From Cognatundibacterium crateris (lineage in GTDB: Bacteria; Pseudomonadota; Gammaproteobacteria; Burkholderiales; Burkholderiaceae_D): a DNA stretch of 64,000 nucleotides. Below, piece by piece: positions 8,972 through 16,642 of this stretch (position 1 is its first letter; each line of letters begins with the position of its first letter). The notes beneath the pieces are model-generated. The model was not told where the DNA came from and did not search any database. It saw nothing but the letters and a program-made list of their open reading frames with translations. The translations under genes were made by a program, and so were the position numbers. The DNA lies in the NCBI RefSeq assembly GCF_010078235.1, contig NZ_JAABOS010000001.1, positions 124,001 through 188,000 on the forward strand, in the 5' to 3' direction.

Positions 8972-9216
8972 GGGAACAATTCCTAAAAAATCCTGGCCAG
9001 CCCGTGTTACATGTAATTACAACTGGCTTTATGTGTAAATTGTCCGCAAATATAGTCAGGAAATATGACGTCTTCGTGTCATTGTTGATTTTGGGAAATT
9101 TTTTTGTTTTTCGTTGCGTGCTCACTGAGCATGACATCGTGCTGAGGCCGGAGAGTACGCTTTGCAGAACTGGATGAAACCAGCTTGCTTAATTTGAATT
9201 TAACTAAGATTAGGTG

Positions 9217-9441
9217 CTAATGCTGCCAAGCCATCTTTATGCTGCGCAGCGCTGCTGACCAGTCTGTCCTGTTTTTGAGTAACGCCTCAAGGTCTACATG
9301 CTTACCCTCTCCGCCGATAAAAGCAGACTGAGTTGTCGAATCGTTAGCCAGCGAACGGAATGGAGGTACTGGGTCATCTATTCTGTTTTCCACAATGGCG
9401 TACCAGAAAAATTCTGAAGCGCTTTTTGCCTGGAGGAAGAA
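9217..9441 (-). pseudogene. 3' remnant of an unidentified minus-strand gene
   Basis: This frame has coding-like residues (FFWYAIVENRIDDPVPPFR at the start, then FIGGEGKHVDLEALLKN and a terminal IKMAWQH) and runs 74 codons to a TAG at 9217-9219, but has no ATG. The only start is a GTG at 9393, giving 58 residues. The frame is cut at 9442, where the Tat-lipoprotein gene begins on the other strand. This looks like the C-terminal end of a gene whose 5' part was lost. I do not recognise the family. It could instead be a chance open frame. Confidence 0.35.
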
Positions 9442-9443
9442 TC

Positions 9444-10604
9444 ATGGATCGTCGCAAGTTCATTCGGGTCGTTGGGGGTGTTTCCATCGCCGCAGCAACA
9501 ATATCATCGGCTGGGTGTGCTCAACGCATGCCTGCCTCAGCCATAGCGAGCTGGCGTGGGCCTGGACATGAAGCAGATGTACGGCGCTGGATACTTGGCT
9601 ACGCGATCCTCGCGCCACATTCGCACAATCTGCAATCCTGGTTGGTGGATTTGCGCACTCCGGACGAGATTCTGTTGCGTTGCGATACTTCTCGTTTGCT
9701 GCCCGAGGCAGACCCTTTTTCGCGCCAGATTATGATCAGTCACGGTGCGTTTCTCGAATTACTGGACATGGCTTCACGCGAGTGTGGCTTGCGGGCCGAT
9801 ATTTCCTTATTCCCTGAAGGGCAATTTACTGCTGTCGATATTGATCAACGCCCGGTTGCACGCATTCGTCTGGTGGCCGATTCCACATTAGTCAGAGAGC
9901 CTCTTTTTACACAGATTCTGAAGCGTCGCACGAATCGCGAATCGTATGAGCTGACGCGGCCGATTGCGCCAGACACATGGCTGGCGATGGCGGATAGTGT
10001 TAAGCCCAATTTACTGCAGTTTGGACATGTTGGTCCGGATCAGCCCGGGTTACTACAACAGCACCGCAAGCTCGCAGCCGAAGCCTGGCGGATCGAATTG
10101 ACTACTGCCAGAGTCGTGTTGGAAACCTACAGCGTATTGCGTATTGGTGCTGCAGAAGTGGAATTGCATCGTGATGGCATGGCGCTGCTGGATGGTGTCC
10201 CAGTGTTAATGAGTACGTTGGGAATGTTTAATCGTCATATATCTCCCGCGGCGGACGACTATGCAGTGACCAGTCAGATTCGGGATTTCAATTCCAGGCT
10301 TGCCTCGACGCCGGCTTTTTTGTGGCTGATTACACCTGACAATGATCGTCAGACGCAGATTAACGCTGGCCGGGCATTCGTTCGTATTCAGCTTGCCGCA
10401 AGTGCCGCCGGGGTTTCCCTGCAACCCCTGTCGCAAGCCTTGCAAGAATATTCTGAGCAGGCCCAGTCCTATGCTGAGATTCGCCGGCTTCTTGAACTTT
10501 CACAGCCAGGTCAGACGGTACAGATGTGGGCCCGTGCCGGCTTTGCACCTGCTATCGGTCCGGCGCCGCGCCGAGGTGTGGACGCCCAATTGGTTAGGGC
10601 TTGA
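9444..10604 (+). CDS. Tat-exported nitroreductase-like (Acg-type) lipoprotein
   Basis: A 386-residue protein resembling the Acg/Rv3131-like branch of the nitroreductase fold, which binds FMN. The N terminus is a Tat signal (DRRKFIRVVGG) followed by a short hydrophobic stretch and a lipobox-like SAGC, so it is probably exported folded and lipid-anchored. The conserved segment APHSHNLQSWLVDL near residue 55 matches the region that contacts the flavin phosphate in nitroreductases, and the repeated KRRTNRESYE-type segment also fits. The ATG at 9444 is chosen because a GGAGG lies 8 bp upstream and it directly precedes the twin arginines; an earlier ATG at 9360 would bury the signal. It overlaps or abuts the next gene, suggesting coupling. 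Confidence 0.75.
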   Translation: MDRRKFIRVVGGVSIAAATISSAGCAQRMPASAIASWRGPGHEADVRRWILGYAILAPHSHNLQSWLVDLRTPDEILLRCDTSRLLPEADPFSRQIMISHGAFLELLDMASRECGLRADISLFPEGQFTAVDIDQRPVARIRLVADSTLVREPLFTQILKRRTNRESYELTRPIAPDTWLAMADSVKPNLLQFGHVGPDQPGLLQQHRKLAAEAWRIELTTARVVLETYSVLRIGAAEVELHRDGMALLDGVPVLMSTLGMFNRHISPAADDYAVTSQIRDFNSRLASTPAFLWLITPDNDRQTQINAGRAFVRIQLAASAAGVSLQPLSQALQEYSEQAQSYAEIRRLLELSQPGQTVQMWARAGFAPAIGPAPRRGVDAQLVRA

Positions 10605-10605
10605 G

Positions 10606-11496
10606 GTGATCATCCTGCTATGCATGGTGTCGGCTTTGGCCATTGCGGTTCTGACTGGCACTGCGTTATGGTACCGTGGTGTTTGGCGCTCAGCCAGCAA
10701 TTTTGATCGCGAAAAGATGGGGCGAGCCGGGTGTTCTGATGCATGCAATGCTTACGATGCCAGAGAAATTCAGGCACTTCCACCTCCAGTAAAACGCTAT
10801 TTCGAGGCTGCGCTTCGGGACGGGCAGCCGTTGATCCTTCAACTCACTTTTTTACAGCAAGGTCAGTTTCGCTTGAATTTAAAAAGCAGACTTTGGCGGC
10901 CATTTCATGCCACCCAATGCGTGGCTGTATCTCCGCCTGGATTTGACTGGGATGCCAGGATCAGATGTGCGCCTGGGCTGGATATCTGGGTCCGGGATGC
11001 CTACGTTCTGGGCGCAGGACATTTGAAAGCTGCGCTGGCCGGATTGTTCAACCTAAGCGATCAGCACGACCGCCCGGAGCTGGCCCGTGGTGAACTGATG
11101 CGCTACCTCGCAGAGGCGGTGTGGTATCCAACGGCATTGCTCCCCAGTCAGGGTGTGCAATGGCGGGCGCTGGATGATACGTCCGCAGAAGCGACTATCC
11201 ATGATGGGGGAACTGCTGTCACCCTGGTTTTTACTTTTGGAGCGGATGCTTTGGTCTCGACGGTGAGAGCCGCATCACGTCCGCTGTCAGCTACCCAGTC
11301 AGCACCCTGGTTGTGTCGTATTCATGCTTATATACAGTGCCATGGCATGTCTATCCCACTACATGCTGAGGTTGAGTGGGAGCTGCCGGACGGTTCCGCA
11401 CCCTATTTTGTTGGTCACGTCAGCGAACTGGCGTACAGCTTCTGCGCTATCGCTCCGGCAATTGCAGTATCGCCTGTTCAGCCGGGAAAAAACTAA
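10606..11496 (+). CDS. Membrane-anchored DUF6544/DUF6920-like protein
   Basis: About 296 residues: one N-terminal membrane helix (IILLCMVSALAIAVLTGTAL), then a soluble domain. The phrases LPPPVKRYFEAALRDGQP and FHATQCVAVSPPGFDWDARI are typical of a family of unknown function (DUF6544/DUF6920). The start is uncertain. The frame is open back into the upstream gene, but a GTG at 10606 sits one base after the upstream stop, and an ATG at 10624 inside the helix is the alternative. The tight junction with the Tat-lipoprotein gene suggests one transcript and a shared envelope role, which is inference. Confidence 0.7.
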   Translation: MIILLCMVSALAIAVLTGTALWYRGVWRSASNFDREKMGRAGCSDACNAYDAREIQALPPPVKRYFEAALRDGQPLILQLTFLQQGQFRLNLKSRLWRPFHATQCVAVSPPGFDWDARIRCAPGLDIWVRDAYVLGAGHLKAALAGLFNLSDQHDRPELARGELMRYLAEAVWYPTALLPSQGVQWRALDDTSAEATIHDGGTAVTLVFTFGADALVSTVRAASRPLSATQSAPWLCRIHAYIQCHGMSIPLHAEVEWELPDGSAPYFVGHVSELAYSFCAIAPAIAVSPVQPGKN

Positions 11497-11925
11497 ATCA
11501 GAAATTGAGTGCTGACGGGCTGTGCAAACCTTGCCCGCACCAGGTTCATGTCTGAGTAACACCACAGCAGATTTTATTGACAGGCCAGGCGTACAGATAG
11601 ATGCCATGCGAGACATCGGGAAGGGCGTTGAAGCTGCGCATCGTTTTTGTATGCAGTGAAATATAAGATGGCATAGCTGCAGAAAAGGCTGAAAGTCTTG
11701 ATCGCTCTGCACCTTTGTGGGATGTGTCAAGGTGAGCAGAAGGATGCTGTTGCGGTGTGCTTTATTTGACTCGAATTGCGCCGGAAAAGGTTGCAGGTTC
11801 TGACTGGTTCTCGTGTTGAATTTTCCTGGTAAATTTCTAGACCCAGGGTGTAGTTAGACTACCAAATGCTTATTTTGGATAGGCTGCTCCCTGTCAGTTC
11901 AATCGCGCATCTGGTATCATTCGGC
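11497..11925. other. Intergenic stretch before udk, nothing convincing
   Basis: About 430 bases between the DUF gene and udk. A minus-strand open frame (11359-11730) lies mostly over the DUF gene and has no coding character. I see no tRNA, repeat or strong hairpin. The udk promoter must lie here; no clear consensus boxes stand out. Confidence 0.4.
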
Positions 11926-12567
11926 ATGAACAAGATTTCTTTCCATCCATTTGTTATTGGTGTCGCTGGCGGCAGCGGCAGTGGTAAGTCTACGGTATCC
12001 CAGCAAGTGCTCGCGTCGTTTGGCGCCGATATGGTCTCGGTGGTGATGCAGGACGATTATTACTGCGACCAATCCCATCTCAGCCCTGAAGAACGCCGCA
12101 GGCAGAATTACGATCACCCACAAGCTTTTGACTGGCCTTTGCTGGTGCAACACGTCCAGGCCTTGCGCAATGGCGAAACGATCGCGATGCCTGAATACGA
12201 CTTCACGATTGATAACCGCTCTAACCGCACCATCCCCGTGAAGCCCGCACCGGTCATCGTGATCGAAGGCCTGTTTGCTTTGTATGATGCCGATTTGCGC
12301 AATCTGATGTCGCTCAAGATTTTTGTCGATACCGCATCTGATGTGCGTTTTATCCGTCGCATGCAAAGGGATATCACCGAGCGCGGCCGTAACGTAGAAA
12401 GCGTCGTCAGCCAGTACATGGAAACGGTACGCCCTATGCATCAGCAATTCATAGAACCAACCAAGCGCCACGCCAACGTCATCATCCCGCACGGTGCTAA
12501 CGGCCCTGCAGTCGACGTGATTACCACCAAGGTAGCCAGCGTACTCGACCAGTTAAAGCAAAACTGA
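11926..12567 (+). CDS. udk: Uridine kinase
   Basis: Phosphorylates uridine and cytidine to UMP and CMP in pyrimidine salvage. The 213-residue protein carries a P-loop GGSGSGKST (residues 15-23), the conserved QDDYYCDQSHL, YDHPQAFDWPLL for nucleoside binding, and IVIEGLFALYD. The ATG at 11926 gives the normal family length; an upstream in-frame ATG at 11866 would add 20 residues absent from the family. It is followed by its own terminator, and everything downstream until tRNA-Ser is foreign or decayed. Confidence 0.93.
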   Translation: MNKISFHPFVIGVAGGSGSGKSTVSQQVLASFGADMVSVVMQDDYYCDQSHLSPEERRRQNYDHPQAFDWPLLVQHVQALRNGETIAMPEYDFTIDNRSNRTIPVKPAPVIVIEGLFALYDADLRNLMSLKIFVDTASDVRFIRRMQRDITERGRNVESVVSQYMETVRPMHQQFIEPTKRHANVIIPHGANGPAVDVITTKVASVLDQLKQN

Positions 12568-12629: not shown

Positions 12630-12674
12630 AAGCGCCACGCATGCATGTATCTACGCAGTGCAGTGGCGCTTTTT
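12630..12674 (+). terminator. Probable terminator of udk
   Basis: AAGCGCCAC (12630-12638) pairs with GTGGCGCTT (12663-12671) and the right arm runs into TTTTT. The loop is long (24 bases), but stem and T tract are clear, about 60 bp after the udk stop. Confidence 0.7.
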
Positions 12675-12744: not shown

Positions 12745-12785
12745 AAAATAAAAAAGCCTTTAAGTCGCATGCACTTAAAGGCTTT
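12745..12785 (-). terminator. Orphan minus-strand terminator hairpin
   Basis: A perfect 13-bp inverted repeat (arms 12753-12765 and 12773-12785, loop CGCATGC). Read on the minus strand, the stem is followed by a T-rich tract (the plus strand reads AAAATAAAAAA before the left arm), so it terminates minus-strand transcription. No intact minus-strand gene lies to its right; only the fragment at 12987-13154 does. It probably belonged to that lost gene. Confidence 0.7.
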
Positions 12786-12986
12786 GTGTCTTGGTAGGGG
12801 GCAAATAACCTCTTGAAAGCCTTATCAATAAAGGGATCAGATTTTTTTGAATTTAATCATGAATGCAACGATGGATGCAAAAAAAACTCAACAAATAAAC
12901 AGATCAGGTATTGAGCAAATATGCCATTCAAACTAACAAAGTGTCACAACCTCTAACGAGACGTAATTATTTTGTTACAGGAACTA

Positions 12987-13154
12987 CTAATGACATGGCG
13001 TATTGGAGTCCAACATATCAACCATAAATTCAGGTTTTATCTTTTCGCCTAATCCTAGTTTAAACGTTACATTTGAAGAGAAAAAAACGTCAAAATGATT
13101 TAACGGATGAAAGTGACCTTTTACATGCAGAGGGTCACGTTCATATCCTCCATC
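12987..13154 (-). pseudogene. C-terminal fragment of a lost minus-strand gene
   Basis: In this frame the sequence reads like real protein: GYERDPLHVKGHFHPLNHFD, then VTFKLGLGEKIKPEFMVDML, ending DSNTPCH and a TAG at 12987-12989. There is no start codon, and a TAA closes the frame upstream at 13155-13157. I do not recognise the family. The AT-rich composition matches the AIPR gene next door, and a minus-strand terminator lies about 200 bp downstream in the same sense, supporting a truncated gene. Confidence 0.45.
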
Positions 13155-13529
13155 TTAACTTATCCGTTCTTCTGTACAGGCTTCGCATGAGACTGGATAC
13201 CCGGTATCCCCTGCACGTGTCGGACTTAAAGTCCTAACCGTATCGCGACACGCCAGATTGATGAGTAACCACAAATTTTCGAATAGGTGCAGGTTTAGGA
13301 CCGTTAAGTCCGTTGTATGGAAAATAGGACCGGTTTTCAATTATGGGATGAGTGTCGGGCGAGCTGGTTGCAATTCCAAGCAAGAAATTTCTTTTTTAAT
13401 ATTTGTTGTGACTAATGCCACTATCTGATATTTTGTTTGGTATTAATACAGAAAAATAAAGCCTCTTTTTAGGTTCAGATAATAGCGCTTCAAGTTAAGC
13501 ACACATTTCGTAAATTATAAAACAGCTAT
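13155..13529. other. Non-coding stretch upstream of the AIPR gene
   Basis: About 375 AT-rich bases. It contains a minus-strand open frame of 61 codons (13155-13340) of doubtful coding value and a near-palindrome GGACTTAAAGTCC around 13221. The AIPR promoter must lie here; a TTGTGA at 13406 and GATATT at 13427 are a weak candidate pair. No attachment-site copy of the tRNA-Ser 3' end is visible. Confidence 0.4.
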
Positions 13530-15272
13530 ATGGACAAAATAACTAAATCATTACTTGAAACATTCGCAAAACAAAATGATTTGATCAAAGTAGAGGAATC
13601 TACTCAATTTGAGCATTTTGCCAATTATTGCATTACATCAAAATTGAATCGATCAAGTTTTGAGTTAGAAGACATTCACACTGGGAGTGGCGGTGATAGT
13701 GCGATTGACGGGTTATGCATTATTGTTAATGGAAAAATAGTCACAGATAGCGATGAGCTTTCGGAGCTCGTTCAGGCAACAGGACATCTGGATGCGGAGC
13801 TTATTTTTATTCAAGCCAAAACAACGTCATCGTTTAATGGTTCAGAGATTGGTTCATTTATTCATGGTGTAAAAGATTTTTTGTCAGATGAGCCAAAGCT
13901 TGTTCAAAATAAAAGAATAAAATATTTCAAAATGCTATGGGATGAAGTTATATCTTTATCATCTTACATGATCAACAGAAGGCCATACACCCGTCTTTGT
14001 TACGTTTGTACTGGCAAGTGGGTTGATGATCAAAATCTCAGAGCAGTGATAGAAGGTGGGGTCAGCGAACTCGATTCAATTGGGATTTTCGATGAGGTGT
14101 CTTTAACTCCGTATGGTGCGACCGAAATTCAAAAATTATACCAAGAGACAAAAAACAAACTTTCAACCACTATTACTTTTCAAAACAGAATAACACTGCC
14201 TGATATAGAGGGTGTTAAAGAGGCTTACCTTGGAGTAGTGCCATTTGTTGAGTTTATTAAGCTTATTCAAGACGAAAATCAAACCATACATAACATATTT
14301 GATGACAACGTCCGAGATTACCAAGGCGAAAATGAAGTTAATAAGAAAATTAAGGGAACATTAGAAAAAGGGGCATTTGACTTATTTTGCGTACTTAACA
14401 ATGGAATTACTGTTGTTGCATCGTCTCTTACACCAGCGGGAAATCGTTTTACGCTGCGAGACTATCAAATTGTAAATGGCTGTCAAACAAGTAATGTTTT
14501 GCATAGCTGTCAAAAAATGAGTGGCATAGAAGATACCAGTATTCCGATCAGAATCATTGTCACAGAAGACGATGCGATAAAAACAGAAATTACACTCGCG
14601 ACAAATAGCCAAACTGAAGTGAAGACAGAGCAGCTTGAAGCGTTGAATGCATTTCAAAAACAATTAGAGCTTTATTTTAGCTCTGAAAAATTGCCGCAAA
14701 ATTTGTACTATGAACGACGTTCTCAACAATATAACGCGATGCCTGAGATTAAAAGGCCTCAAATTATTAGCATTCCAATACAGATAAAGACTTTTGCGTC
14801 TATGTTTTTGCTCTCCCCCCATTTGGTAACGGGTTATTACGGTACGATTGTCAATCGTTTCAAAGGGAAAATTTTTGCCCCCGATCATAAATTTTTACCG
14901 TATTTTGTTAGTGCACTTTGCTATTTTAAAATTGAACAGTTTTTTAAAAATGGTGATTTACCCAATGATTATAAAAGAGCACGCTTTCAGATTATGATGA
15001 TCGCCAAGATTATTGCAATGGGCAAGAATGATGATTATCTAAATAGCAATAAAATAGAAAGAAAGTGTGAAGCTTTAAAGCAATTATTAAAGGATGACAA
15101 AAAAGCCTTAGATCTTTTTTTATGTGCTATAAAGGTGTTTAATTCGTCTGGAGTTGATATTGAGAAGCAAAGGTATAAAGCGGAGTCAGATACTGAGTTG
15201 CTAATAAAAGCAGCAGAAGCATATCAAAAAGAAAATAAAACGATTCAGCCTCCTCTTGATTTATTTGCCTGA
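13530..15272 (+). CDS. AIPR-family abortive infection/phage resistance protein
   Basis: A 580-residue protein matching the AIPR family, linked to phage-exclusion (Abi) systems. Family landmarks are NVRDYQG (residues 260-266), NNGIT (290-294) and QIVNGCQT (313-320). The N terminus adds a nuclease-like pattern: Glu28 in a helix, AIDG with Asp60, then FIQAK with Gln95 and Lys97. That is the E...D...QxK layout of Mrr-type PD-(D/E)xK endonucleases. This supports DNA or RNA cleavage as the effector activity, but no activity is known for this gene. Base and codon use are strongly AT-rich compared with all neighbours, a sign of transfer. No partner gene remains: it stands alone between a gene fragment and phage/integrase pseudogenes beside tRNA-Ser. 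No obvious Shine-Dalgarno precedes the ATG. Confidence 0.85.
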   Translation: MDKITKSLLETFAKQNDLIKVEESTQFEHFANYCITSKLNRSSFELEDIHTGSGGDSAIDGLCIIVNGKIVTDSDELSELVQATGHLDAELIFIQAKTTSSFNGSEIGSFIHGVKDFLSDEPKLVQNKRIKYFKMLWDEVISLSSYMINRRPYTRLCYVCTGKWVDDQNLRAVIEGGVSELDSIGIFDEVSLTPYGATEIQKLYQETKNKLSTTITFQNRITLPDIEGVKEAYLGVVPFVEFIKLIQDENQTIHNIFDDNVRDYQGENEVNKKIKGTLEKGAFDLFCVLNNGITVVASSLTPAGNRFTLRDYQIVNGCQTSNVLHSCQKMSGIEDTSIPIRIIVTEDDAIKTEITLATNSQTEVKTEQLEALNAFQKQLELYFSSEKLPQNLYYERRSQQYNAMPEIKRPQIISIPIQIKTFASMFLLSPHLVTGYYGTIVNRFKGKIFAPDHKFLPYFVSALCYFKIEQFFKNGDLPNDYKRARFQIMMIAKIIAMGKNDDYLNSNKIERKCEALKQLLKDDKKALDLFLCAIKVFNSSGVDIEKQRYKAESDTELLIKAAEAYQKENKTIQPPLDLFA

Positions 15273-15397
15273 AAGCAACACCTAACTGCACCAAAATATT
15301 ATGAAAATTTAGTTAAATTTTTTTTATTGTATTAATGGTGAAATACGGAATATTGACCAATGAACCCAATCCAATAGCTGCCAACAAAGGAAATATC

Positions 15398-15446
15398 TAT
15401 CCTTGGTGATGTCTGATTTTAGACACCACGCTCATCACCAAGGATA
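15398..15446. repeat. 14-bp inverted repeat upstream of the holin remnant
   Basis: TATCCTTGGTGATG (15398-15411) is perfectly repeated in inverted form at 15433-15446, with a 21-base loop. It ends 3 bp before the ATG of the holin remnant. It may be a transcript hairpin or terminator from the phage, or an operator; there is no T tract. Confidence 0.7.
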
Positions 15447-15449
15447 GCC

Positions 15450-15826
15450 ATGCGTAAATACCTACCCAAAAACCTCCTCCGCATGACTGATTGGCTGATC
15501 GCAGCCATCCTCCTCTTGCTTTGCATCCTCGCCTTTTCGCCGCAGTAAATACCGGTCAGCCTCTACAAAATCAATCTCATTTCGATAGCTGGCGTCGTCG
15601 GTTATTGGCTTGACCGCAGCTTGTTTCCGTATGCGCGGCCAGATACGTTTATCGGGCGATATCTGGAAGACGCCGAAGCGCCTTTACATTTCGATGCTGT
15701 CTGCAAAACGACTTGCTGCTGGCCGCAGCGATGCTGCGCCGGTCGCTCATCGTTGCCGCCGCCATGATCGCAGTCGGCCTGGGGGGGGCTGAACATGAAT
15801 TGTTTTTTGGTTCAATCATTTGCTAA
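15450..15826 (+). pseudogene. Phage holin remnant (stop codon plus frameshift)
   Basis: Starts as MRKYLPKNLLRMTDWLIAAI with a membrane helix, as in small putative phage holins. It meets TAA at 15546-15548 (residue 33), but the same frame goes on without break as IPVSLYKINLISIAGVVGYW then LDRSLFPYARPDTF, the conserved middle of that holin family. The expected residue at the stop is Gln, so a single CAA to TAA change explains it. Around 15690-15730 the reading moves to another frame (AAAMLRRSLIVAAAMIAVGL), the second membrane helix. Two independent lesions mean the gene is dead. It would have permeabilised the inner membrane at phage lysis. Confidence 0.75.
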
Positions 15827-15841
15827 CCTCTACTTGATAGT

Positions 15842-16388
15842 TCAAAGGCTAAAGACACGGGCACAAGTCGATTTAAGACGATGCGCAATTTCGCCACCAC
15901 CGCGTGCTTCTATCTTGCGCAGGGCTGCGATCATCTGGGGATGCGTGATTGATGCAATAGGTAACTTGCCAATCACTGGGAAAATATCCTTTTCCAACCT
16001 ATGAATTGTTTCCTTGGTAGTAGTTGCGCTCCATGCACTTAGGCGGTTTGAGTGCTATTCACGGGCTATCTTTTCAAAAGTGTTGGCGCGCTGGCTGATT
16101 CCTCTTTGGCCTTACGTCTAGCTTGTCCTGGGTCGATCCTTGTGCGATCTGCTTGCGGGCTTCTAGGCGCTTCTCTCTTGCCTCCGCTAGCGAAACTTCT
16201 GGATATGTTCCAAAAGCTAAACGGCACTCGCTTCCATTGGCTTGTCTAAATTTCTTTTGCCATAGTTTTGAGCATGTAGGTGTTACCTCCAAGTACATAC
16301 CGCCGCAGTCTGCCAGCTTATAGGCTTTCTCTTTTGGCTTCGCGTTTTTGACCTGAATGTCAGTAAGCGGGGCGGCTATCTTTGGCAT
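15842..16388 (-). pseudogene. P4-type tyrosine integrase pseudogene
   Basis: The N-terminal DUF4102 arm-binding domain is intact (MPKIAAPLTDIQVKNAKPKE to EARKQIAQG). The reading then shifts frame at about 16130 into IDPGQARRKAKEESAS, shifts again at about 16090 into NTFEKIARE, and meets TAG where the family has Trp. The same frame goes on with the core-binding domain (HSNRLSAWSATTTKETIHRL, then FPVIGKLPIASITHPQM and AHRLKSTCARVFS) and breaks off at 15842. About 182 of roughly 400 codons remain, and the whole catalytic domain with its Arg-His-Arg-Tyr residues is missing. It lies downstream of and in the same sense as tRNA-Ser, as in P4-like islands. Confidence 0.88.
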
Positions 16389-16488
16389 TTTGGGGCATCC
16401 TTTGGGTGGGGTATGTAGATGCCCTCAAGAGGGCTCCTAAAGAATGTGGGTGTCAATGGGCATACTTTGCGGCTACAGACGAAAAAAG

Positions 16489-16521
16489 ACCCCTAAATAG
16501 TTGATTACTTAGGGGTTTTTT
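16489..16521. terminator. Bidirectional terminator next to tRNA-Ser
   Basis: ACCCCTAA (16489-16496) pairs with TTAGGGGT (16509-16516). T tracts follow on both strands (seven Ts on plus; TCTTTTTTC on minus). On the minus strand it lies about 37 bp past the tRNA-Ser 3' end, and is probably its terminator. Confidence 0.75.
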
Positions 16522-16552
16522 TGGCAAACTTTGTAGTAGTTTGCGGTGTTCC

Positions 16553-16642
16553 TGGCGGAGAGGGGGGGATTCGAACCCCCGATACCTGTTACAGTACGCC
16601 TGATTTCGAGTCAGGTACATTCAACCACTCTGCCACCTCTCC
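16553..16642 (-). tRNA. tRNA-Ser (anticodon CGA)
   Basis: A 90-base tRNA read on the minus strand. The acceptor stem GGAGAGG pairs with CCTCTCC, the anticodon stem CCTGA/TCAGG encloses the loop CTCGAAA, giving anticodon CGA (reads UCG). A long variable arm (typical of tRNA-Ser) and the T arm GGGGGTTCGAATCCCCC are present, and CCA is encoded at 16553-16555. Its 3' end borders the integrase pseudogene, making it the likely integration target. Confidence 0.95.

Follow-up and report, generated by a model that had tools for sequence, protein, structure and literature searches.

The question raised by this locus is how one whole gene of a defence family came to stand among gene remnants between a udk-type kinase gene and a tRNA-Ser(CGA) gene. 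The locus lies in a stretch of 64,000 nucleotides (nt) from Cognatundibacterium crateris (GCF_010078235.1, NZ_JAABOS010000001.1:124,001-188,000, forward strand), which was analysed throughout and is called the window; it corresponds to G000:C1:124001-188000, G000 being the organism's own genome of 4.3 Mb. The kinase gene occupies 11908-12567 (Pfam PRK) and the tRNA gene 16553-16642 on the minus strand. In the interval between them (12,802-16,552), an AIPR/AbiU-type frame at 13530-15272 on the plus strand is the sole whole gene recognised. The interval is likely to be the remains of one or more integrative elements at tRNA-Ser(CGA), with a dead integrase and a horizontally acquired AIPR gene encoding a putative lone abortive-infection effector with a nuclease-like domain.

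The interval was compared with congeneric genomes, six candidates being scored per genome. Of 42 other congeneric genomes searched for the right-hand neighbour gene, two, G001 and G062, have a close copy (92% and 88%). Both have the same flanks as the window with different DNA between them, the inserts measuring approximately 1.77 and 1.37 kb, respectively. On the right, homology to both genomes restarts exactly at 16553, the 3' end of the tRNA, which is the integration target. On the left, homology ends at 12801 against G001 and at 12673 against G062. The interval 12,802-16,552 is acquired DNA. An insertion boundary at the tRNA 3' end and an integrase remnant beside the tRNA with its 5' end facing it, the integrase being whole in genome G012, are both features of tRNA-targeted elements. 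A decayed integrative island at tRNA-Ser, as proposed in a preliminary description of this DNA, is supported. That description had also expected an empty site in relatives. One exists at tRNA-Ser(CGA) in G027, where the flanks are contiguous with a 10-nt overlap and are split by about 9 kb in G033:C14; the left flanks of these two genomes differ by a further ~230 nt, and the left neighbour differs from that of the window. For the udk-type slot no empty site was found, all three genomes that have the slot (G000, G001 and G062) being filled.

At the far boundary of the G001 and G062 inserts, imperfect copies of the tRNA 3' end were found with alignment scores of 26 and 24, the next best score in these intervals being 13. 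No copy of the tRNA 3' end was found inside the window interval, either as a match of at least 11 nt or by alignment score. Positions 12791-12806 (no strand) are probably what is left of the far attachment site, which has decayed too far to be recognised by its score; they were assigned by position only, lying where G001 and G062 have their imperfect copies and beside the conserved element end. Two observations speak against this assignment: no copy scores at the far boundary of the window's own island, and one chance place in the 64-kb window reaches 25, like the copies in G001 and G062.

An intrinsic-terminator-like hairpin was detected by terminator scan at 12753-12785 on the minus strand. 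It had been listed beforehand as an orphan terminator of the island. The hairpin itself is real, but it lies in flanking chromosome homologous to G001 up to 12801 and is therefore not part of the island. Because it stands in this shared flank and its T-run runs with tRNA transcription, it is probably the original terminator of the tRNA-Ser gene, displaced by the island. Homology to G062 ends before the hairpin (12673). Another terminator-like hairpin, at 16489-16516 on the minus strand, is now nearest to the tRNA-Ser 3' end. The scan returned 7 terminators vs 4.2 expected; a promoter scan was uninformative (7 sites vs 9.0 expected). The gene fragment previously placed between terminator and AIPR gene, at 13.1-13.4 kb, was not confirmed. 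The 61-amino-acid open reading frame (ORF) at 13155-13340 has no PHROG match, and 12802-13529 has no match among 72,556 plasmid records; in congeneric genomes and compared loci only its first ~80-95 bases, the element end, were matched.

The AIPR gene is an intact, open frame of 580 codons with a GC content of 35.5% vs 52.8% for the window, in agreement with its initial description as intact and AT-rich. Its product matches Pfam AIPR (PF10592) with 149.8 bits (cut-off 25), PADLOC AbiU (PDLC02357) with 445.9 bits over residues 2-556 and PHROG 1841, 'Abi alpha-like', with 352 bits over residues 1-566. It is thus a full-length match to an AIPR/AbiU-type model. In an alignment of 75 proteins (the window protein and 74 selected from 133 open homologous ORFs), 20 columns are invariant along the length, the window row itself being one of the 75.

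Next to the tRNA, a 5' fragment of a tyrosine integrase, which we take to be of P4 type, lies at 15845-16388 on the minus strand. It carries two frame-shifting length changes and one stop, and the rest is deleted. Its open part of 104 codons (16388->16074) reads away from the tRNA and matches Pfam Arm-DNA-bind_3 with 80.4 bits; the match to NCBIfam PRK09692 (55 bits) is below the cut-off of 434. A whole relative of 441 codons is present at tRNA-Ser in G012 (L083 11572-12897). A short stretch at 15798-15848 (minus strand) has its G012 counterpart at L083 13855-13906, 1.66 kb further from the tRNA, and by this alignment is read as the mark of an internal deletion of ~1.66 kb that removed the rest of the integrase. 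A G012-type integrase or its remnant was found 3' of tRNA-Ser(CGA) in 8 of 28 genomes examined, the window included, most of them with ~1.5 kb of flank or less. A phage holin-like remnant lies at 15450-15764 on the plus strand, as two open pieces with a stop between them that match whole ORFs of 117 amino acids in L243 and 113 amino acids in L244. The name 'holin', like the lysozyme- and Mu-like look of the neighbours in L243 and L244, was read from the ORFs and no family search was made. The dead integrase with its 5' end toward the tRNA and the dead holin of the preliminary description are accordingly both present, the latter under a name given by reading.

The far end of the island belongs to a family of elements at tRNA-Ser genes. 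The block at 12804-12886 (plus strand), which contains tandem 10-mers at 12859 and 12871, recurs at the far end of four other inserts with 70-72% identity over 80-94 nt: at tRNA-Ser(CGA) in G003 and G033:C14, at tRNA-Ser(TGA) in G033:C9 and at tRNA-Ser(GGA) in G001:C44. Tandem units of the form ATGRATGCA are present in four of the five aligned far ends, and two of these four contain two copies of the full 10-mer ATGRATGCAA; the tandem in G033:C14 differs. A 25-mer of two units (up to 3 mismatches) matched 16 places distributed over 10 of the 43 genus genomes, with 0 in the reversed control, and five genomes have two such places 5.3-23.6 kb apart. The tandem units are probably integrase arm sites. 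The element at tRNA-Ser(GGA) in G001:C44 also contains a 983-codon PriCT_2-Toprim-DUF927 protein (L090:12838-15789), which suggests that some tRNA-Ser elements replicate on their own.

The integrase-proximal end lacks the arm-like motif of the far end, which counts against a single element, and the cargo and the dead integrase may therefore stem from different ones. A serious rival explanation, with a probability only a little short of even, is that a low-GC module comprising the far end and the AIPR gene (12.8-15.4 kb) came from one element, and that the prophage scrap and the G012-type integrase scrap (15.45-16.55 kb) came from other insertions, later or earlier; the AIPR gene would then never have been cargo of the dead integrase. 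Base composition suggests two such modules: between 12.7 and 15.4 kb the GC content stays mostly within 0.29-0.40 (with one 200-nt step of 0.47 at 13.1 kb), and from 15.5 kb on it is 0.48-0.53. The arm-like motif occurs at the far end only, and G012, which carries the related integrase, lacks it even with up to 3 mismatches allowed. In addition, the holin-like remnant matches ORFs in prophage-like stretches of other genomes, and 15450-15797 is unmatched in the G012 locus. However, the arm sites may have diverged or one arm may be deleted, and integrative elements are commonly mosaic, with cargo GC often unlike that of the integrase.

The same remnant bears on the claim that retention of an intact frame among pseudogenes indicates selection. 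Over 180 codons compared with G012, the integrase remnant has 116 identical codons, 51 silent changes, 12 amino-acid changes and 1 stop, corresponding to a nonsynonymous divergence (dN) of 0.030 and a synonymous divergence (dS) of 0.626. Since the divergence from the whole relative is mostly silent, most of it predates the death of the integrase, which is recent. An intact neighbour could therefore persist without selection, and this weakens the argument. The AIPR gene may accordingly be a recent neutral passenger that has not yet decayed; we consider this possible, at a probability somewhat below that of separate origins, and the absence of the gene from the close relative G001 fits it. What remains of the original claim is modest and conditional. 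If AIPR gene and integrase were resident together, all three small disabling changes fell in the integrase (546 of 2289 nt) with a chance of (546/2289)^3 = 0.014, and the 1743 nt of the AIPR gene carry none, whereas the 546 nt of integrase have three, with a large deletion besides. Joint arrival being required for this comparison, selection for the intact AIPR gene is only weakly supported. Synonymous sites are saturated between the AIPR gene and its best relative (pS, the proportion of synonymous differences, 0.91), leaving only dN (0.22) usable.

The distribution of the AIPR gene is patchy. In a genus sample of 36 genomes (own genome included) four had a match, near-full-length only in G000 and G004 (35% identity), and in an order sample 13 of 150 genomes (own included) had one. 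The best relative, at 70% over 517 residues, was found in G176, which belongs to another family of the order. Further relatives are present in Shewanella (67%), Arsukibacterium (66%), Pseudomonas (62-64%) and in Desulfopila, Cyanobacteria and Nitrospirota (58-61%). Matches were also obtained in 68 of 72,556 plasmid records and 7 of 50,697 phages, Fels-2 among them. An alignment search of viral contigs (IMG/VR) gave 55 loci; a scan for close relatives in viral contigs, using only the protein, gave no match. In a tree, the window protein clusters with the G176 copy inside a set of Gammaproteobacteria, Desulfopila, Nitrospirota and Cyanobacteria, and the same-genus G004 copy is far from it. The tree was made by a quick method with support from the Shimodaira-Hasegawa-like approximate likelihood ratio test only, about 16 viral rows being left out; the G004 row is on a long branch (1.76) and possibly a paralogue, and such patterns are no proof of transfer. 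On this basis the gene tree does not look vertical. A vertical core gene is disfavoured by the grouping with G176 and the distance of the G004 copy. Neither a vertical phylogeny nor an arrangement conserved in all relatives, which would have spoken against an island, was seen. The G004 gene itself (L020:9141-10859) is AbiU-type with 438.6 bits; no integrase was noticed nearby by eye, no family search being made.

Action of the protein in the service of an element or prophage (superinfection exclusion or host takeover) instead of host defence is improbable: relatives do occur in phages including Fels-2 and the 55 IMG/VR loci, and PHROG 1841 is classed as moron/host takeover, but among the 79 genome loci compared no group of adjacent phage genes recurs (as judged without scanning the neighbour groups against phage families), and excluding other phages also protects the host, so that the two readings overlap.

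In neighbour clustering of 79 of 80 genome loci, no adjacent partner was common to more than 4 of the 79. The largest adjacent neighbour groups include an integrase-like one, present in 4 loci and adjacent in 3 of them, labelled by reading of ORFs. Because no neighbour is widely common, the AIPR protein most likely acts alone here, as far as gene neighbourhoods can indicate. Two facts point the other way. An adjacent same-strand ORF of ~530 codons is present in 3 of the 79 loci and is a possible partner there, and according to PMC3985639 the lactococcal AbiU system consists of two genes, abiU1 and abiU2, whereas the window has a single gene and no second whole gene was recognised in 12,802-16,552. 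The window protein shares with the AbiU family the full-length match and the alignment with 74 homologues; the function is predicted here.

For the mechanism, structure models were computed with a mean predicted local distance difference test score (pLDDT) of 91.7 for the full protein and 95.3 for the N-terminal part. E28, D60 and Q95 are present in all 75 aligned AIPR proteins, and K97 is K in 66 of them. In the full model, E28 lies on helix 23-39, D60 adjoins strand 61-66 and Q95 is within strand 89-96. A helix with E, a strand with D and a strand with QxK form the core order of Mrr-type PD-(D/E)XK nucleases, and the acidic pair and QxK are thus found in this order. The genome encodes another AIPR protein (L021:8473-10098, G000:C40), whose N-terminal part matches Pfam Mrr_cat with 21.7 bits (cut-off 21). 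Several results weigh against a nuclease. K97 is replaced by E in 9 of the 75 proteins; Foldseek gave no match at E <= 0.001 with the full or the N-terminal model, the latter drawing only weak matches, in which the Hef and XPF nuclease domains stand among many unrelated folds (best nuclease match Hef 1j22, E 0.083, prob 0.14); of the 41 Pfam families for the 75 members, the 25 that were listed include no PD-(D/E)XK model; and one of the 75 has a chance-level LAGLIDADG match (E 0.068). On balance, we lean toward a putative QxK-type restriction-nuclease-like N-terminal domain. For the whole protein, the top Foldseek matches are Pnob8-like ParB-N chains, which are weak (prob 0.66 at best, E 0.036), and a ParB-N-like second half is a tentative lead only. 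Solved relatives were not found by sequence at E <= 1 with a profile, and a single sequence gave only weak prolyl-hydroxylase matches. A full-text search of open-licence literature found no account of how AIPR works.

Under the preferred reading of an integrated and then immobilised island, one or more small elements would have entered the tRNA-Ser(CGA) 3' end by means of a P4-type tyrosine integrase. Integration would have left the tRNA whole, with its former terminator displaced to the other end of the insert. As the integrase is now dead, the island is fixed, and the horizontally acquired AIPR/AbiU-type cargo is still open. Upon phage infection, the N-terminal E...D...QxK restriction-nuclease-like domain, joined to the AIPR domain, would be released and would halt phage or host nucleic-acid synthesis, the protein most likely working alone in abortive infection. 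Protection of this host would follow the same scheme.

Other defence cargo had been expected at this site in relatives. At tRNA-Ser(CGA) in G003, the shared far end is adjoined by genes for HerA (584.5 bits) and for a protein with DUF4297 (127.7 bits; PADLOC, no Pfam match). At tRNA-Ser(CGA), G033:C14 carries DarT (73.5 bits), ADP-ribosylglycohydrolase (103.9 bits), a UvrD-type helicase and a DUF927 protein; the first three (L086:1547-5401) are possibly a DarTG-like system with another partner. G005 has type I restriction-modification (R-M) specificity and methylase genes near tRNA-Ser(CGA), where the insert ends were not established and the restriction subunit was not sought. Between these R-M genes lies a Schlafen AlbA_2-type protein (L236:1086-6622). 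Selected ORFs per insert were checked with PADLOC, and several inserts gave no defence match, a point against the preferred reading. No match was obtained for any selected ORF of G001 and G062 together (3 of 3), G012 (4 of 4), G015 (3 of 3) or G033:C9 (3 of 3), and of three ORFs in G001:C44 one had PADLOC matches under 19 bits only and the others none. The G001 insert contains two small ORFs without Pfam match and the G062 insert a GNAT acetyltransferase. The expectation thus holds for G003, G033 and, nearby, G005, but not for several inserts including those of G001 and G062; predicted defence cargo recurs at tRNA-Ser(CGA) without being universal.

The locus was compared with described systems. 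P4-like satellites and P2-like phage hotspots (PMC9122126) share with it a P4-type integrase and swapped defence cargo; here, however, the integrase is dead, the cargo stands at the end away from the tRNA and not between psu and int, and no satellite structural gene was recognised in the interval. AIPR appears in the key of the P4 cargo figure of that paper, the section consulted not stating that an AIPR system was tested. In E. coli, 18 defence hotspots within tRNA loci are described (PMC10121019), with a tRNA hotspot and strain-variable defence genes as here; the present island is in another genus, is very small and lacks a functional integrase. MzaE, from the MZA system, has an AIPR domain in common (NCBIfam 40.4 bits, far below the model cut-off of 1050), while the window interval has only one whole gene. 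Fels-2 STM2723.1 shows 29% identity over 88% of the protein and belongs to a P2-like phage, but it adjoins a phage portal gene, whereas the window AIPR gene is at the end of a tRNA island. AIPR is described as a protein commonly encoded by R-M operons (PMC2292703) and is placed in an R-M operon in PMC5608340; in the part consulted of PMC3710099, AbiU2 and not AIPR is treated as HEPN.

A second variable stretch lies left of udk at 9100-11884, where G062 has ~170 nt and G001 mostly other DNA; it contains a DUF6920/DUF6544 gene and an ORF whose nitroreductase match is weak and falls below the cut-off.

A wider scheme can be drawn for the genus, although we regard it as rather doubtful in this full form. 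Compact elements at tRNA-Ser (CGA, TGA and GGA) would have a conserved far end of ~80 nt in which ATGGATGCAA-like arm sites occur in pairs, and beside it a slot repeatedly holding unrelated phage-defence genes. The gene in the slot would stay as a permanent immune gene after integrase death, and AbiU/AIPR would be a QxK nuclease effector encoded by one gene, its second half resembling ParB-N. The recurrent end sequence offers a way to locate, within the genus, what elements of this family carry. The nuclease prediction for AbiU/AIPR is open to direct test through the invariant E...D...QxK signature. The island itself is well supported as a small example of a known phenomenon, in which a decaying island at a variable tRNA site still holds a gene of a defence family, and it illustrates cleanly, on a small scale, that a defence gene can persist after the element that delivered it has broken down.

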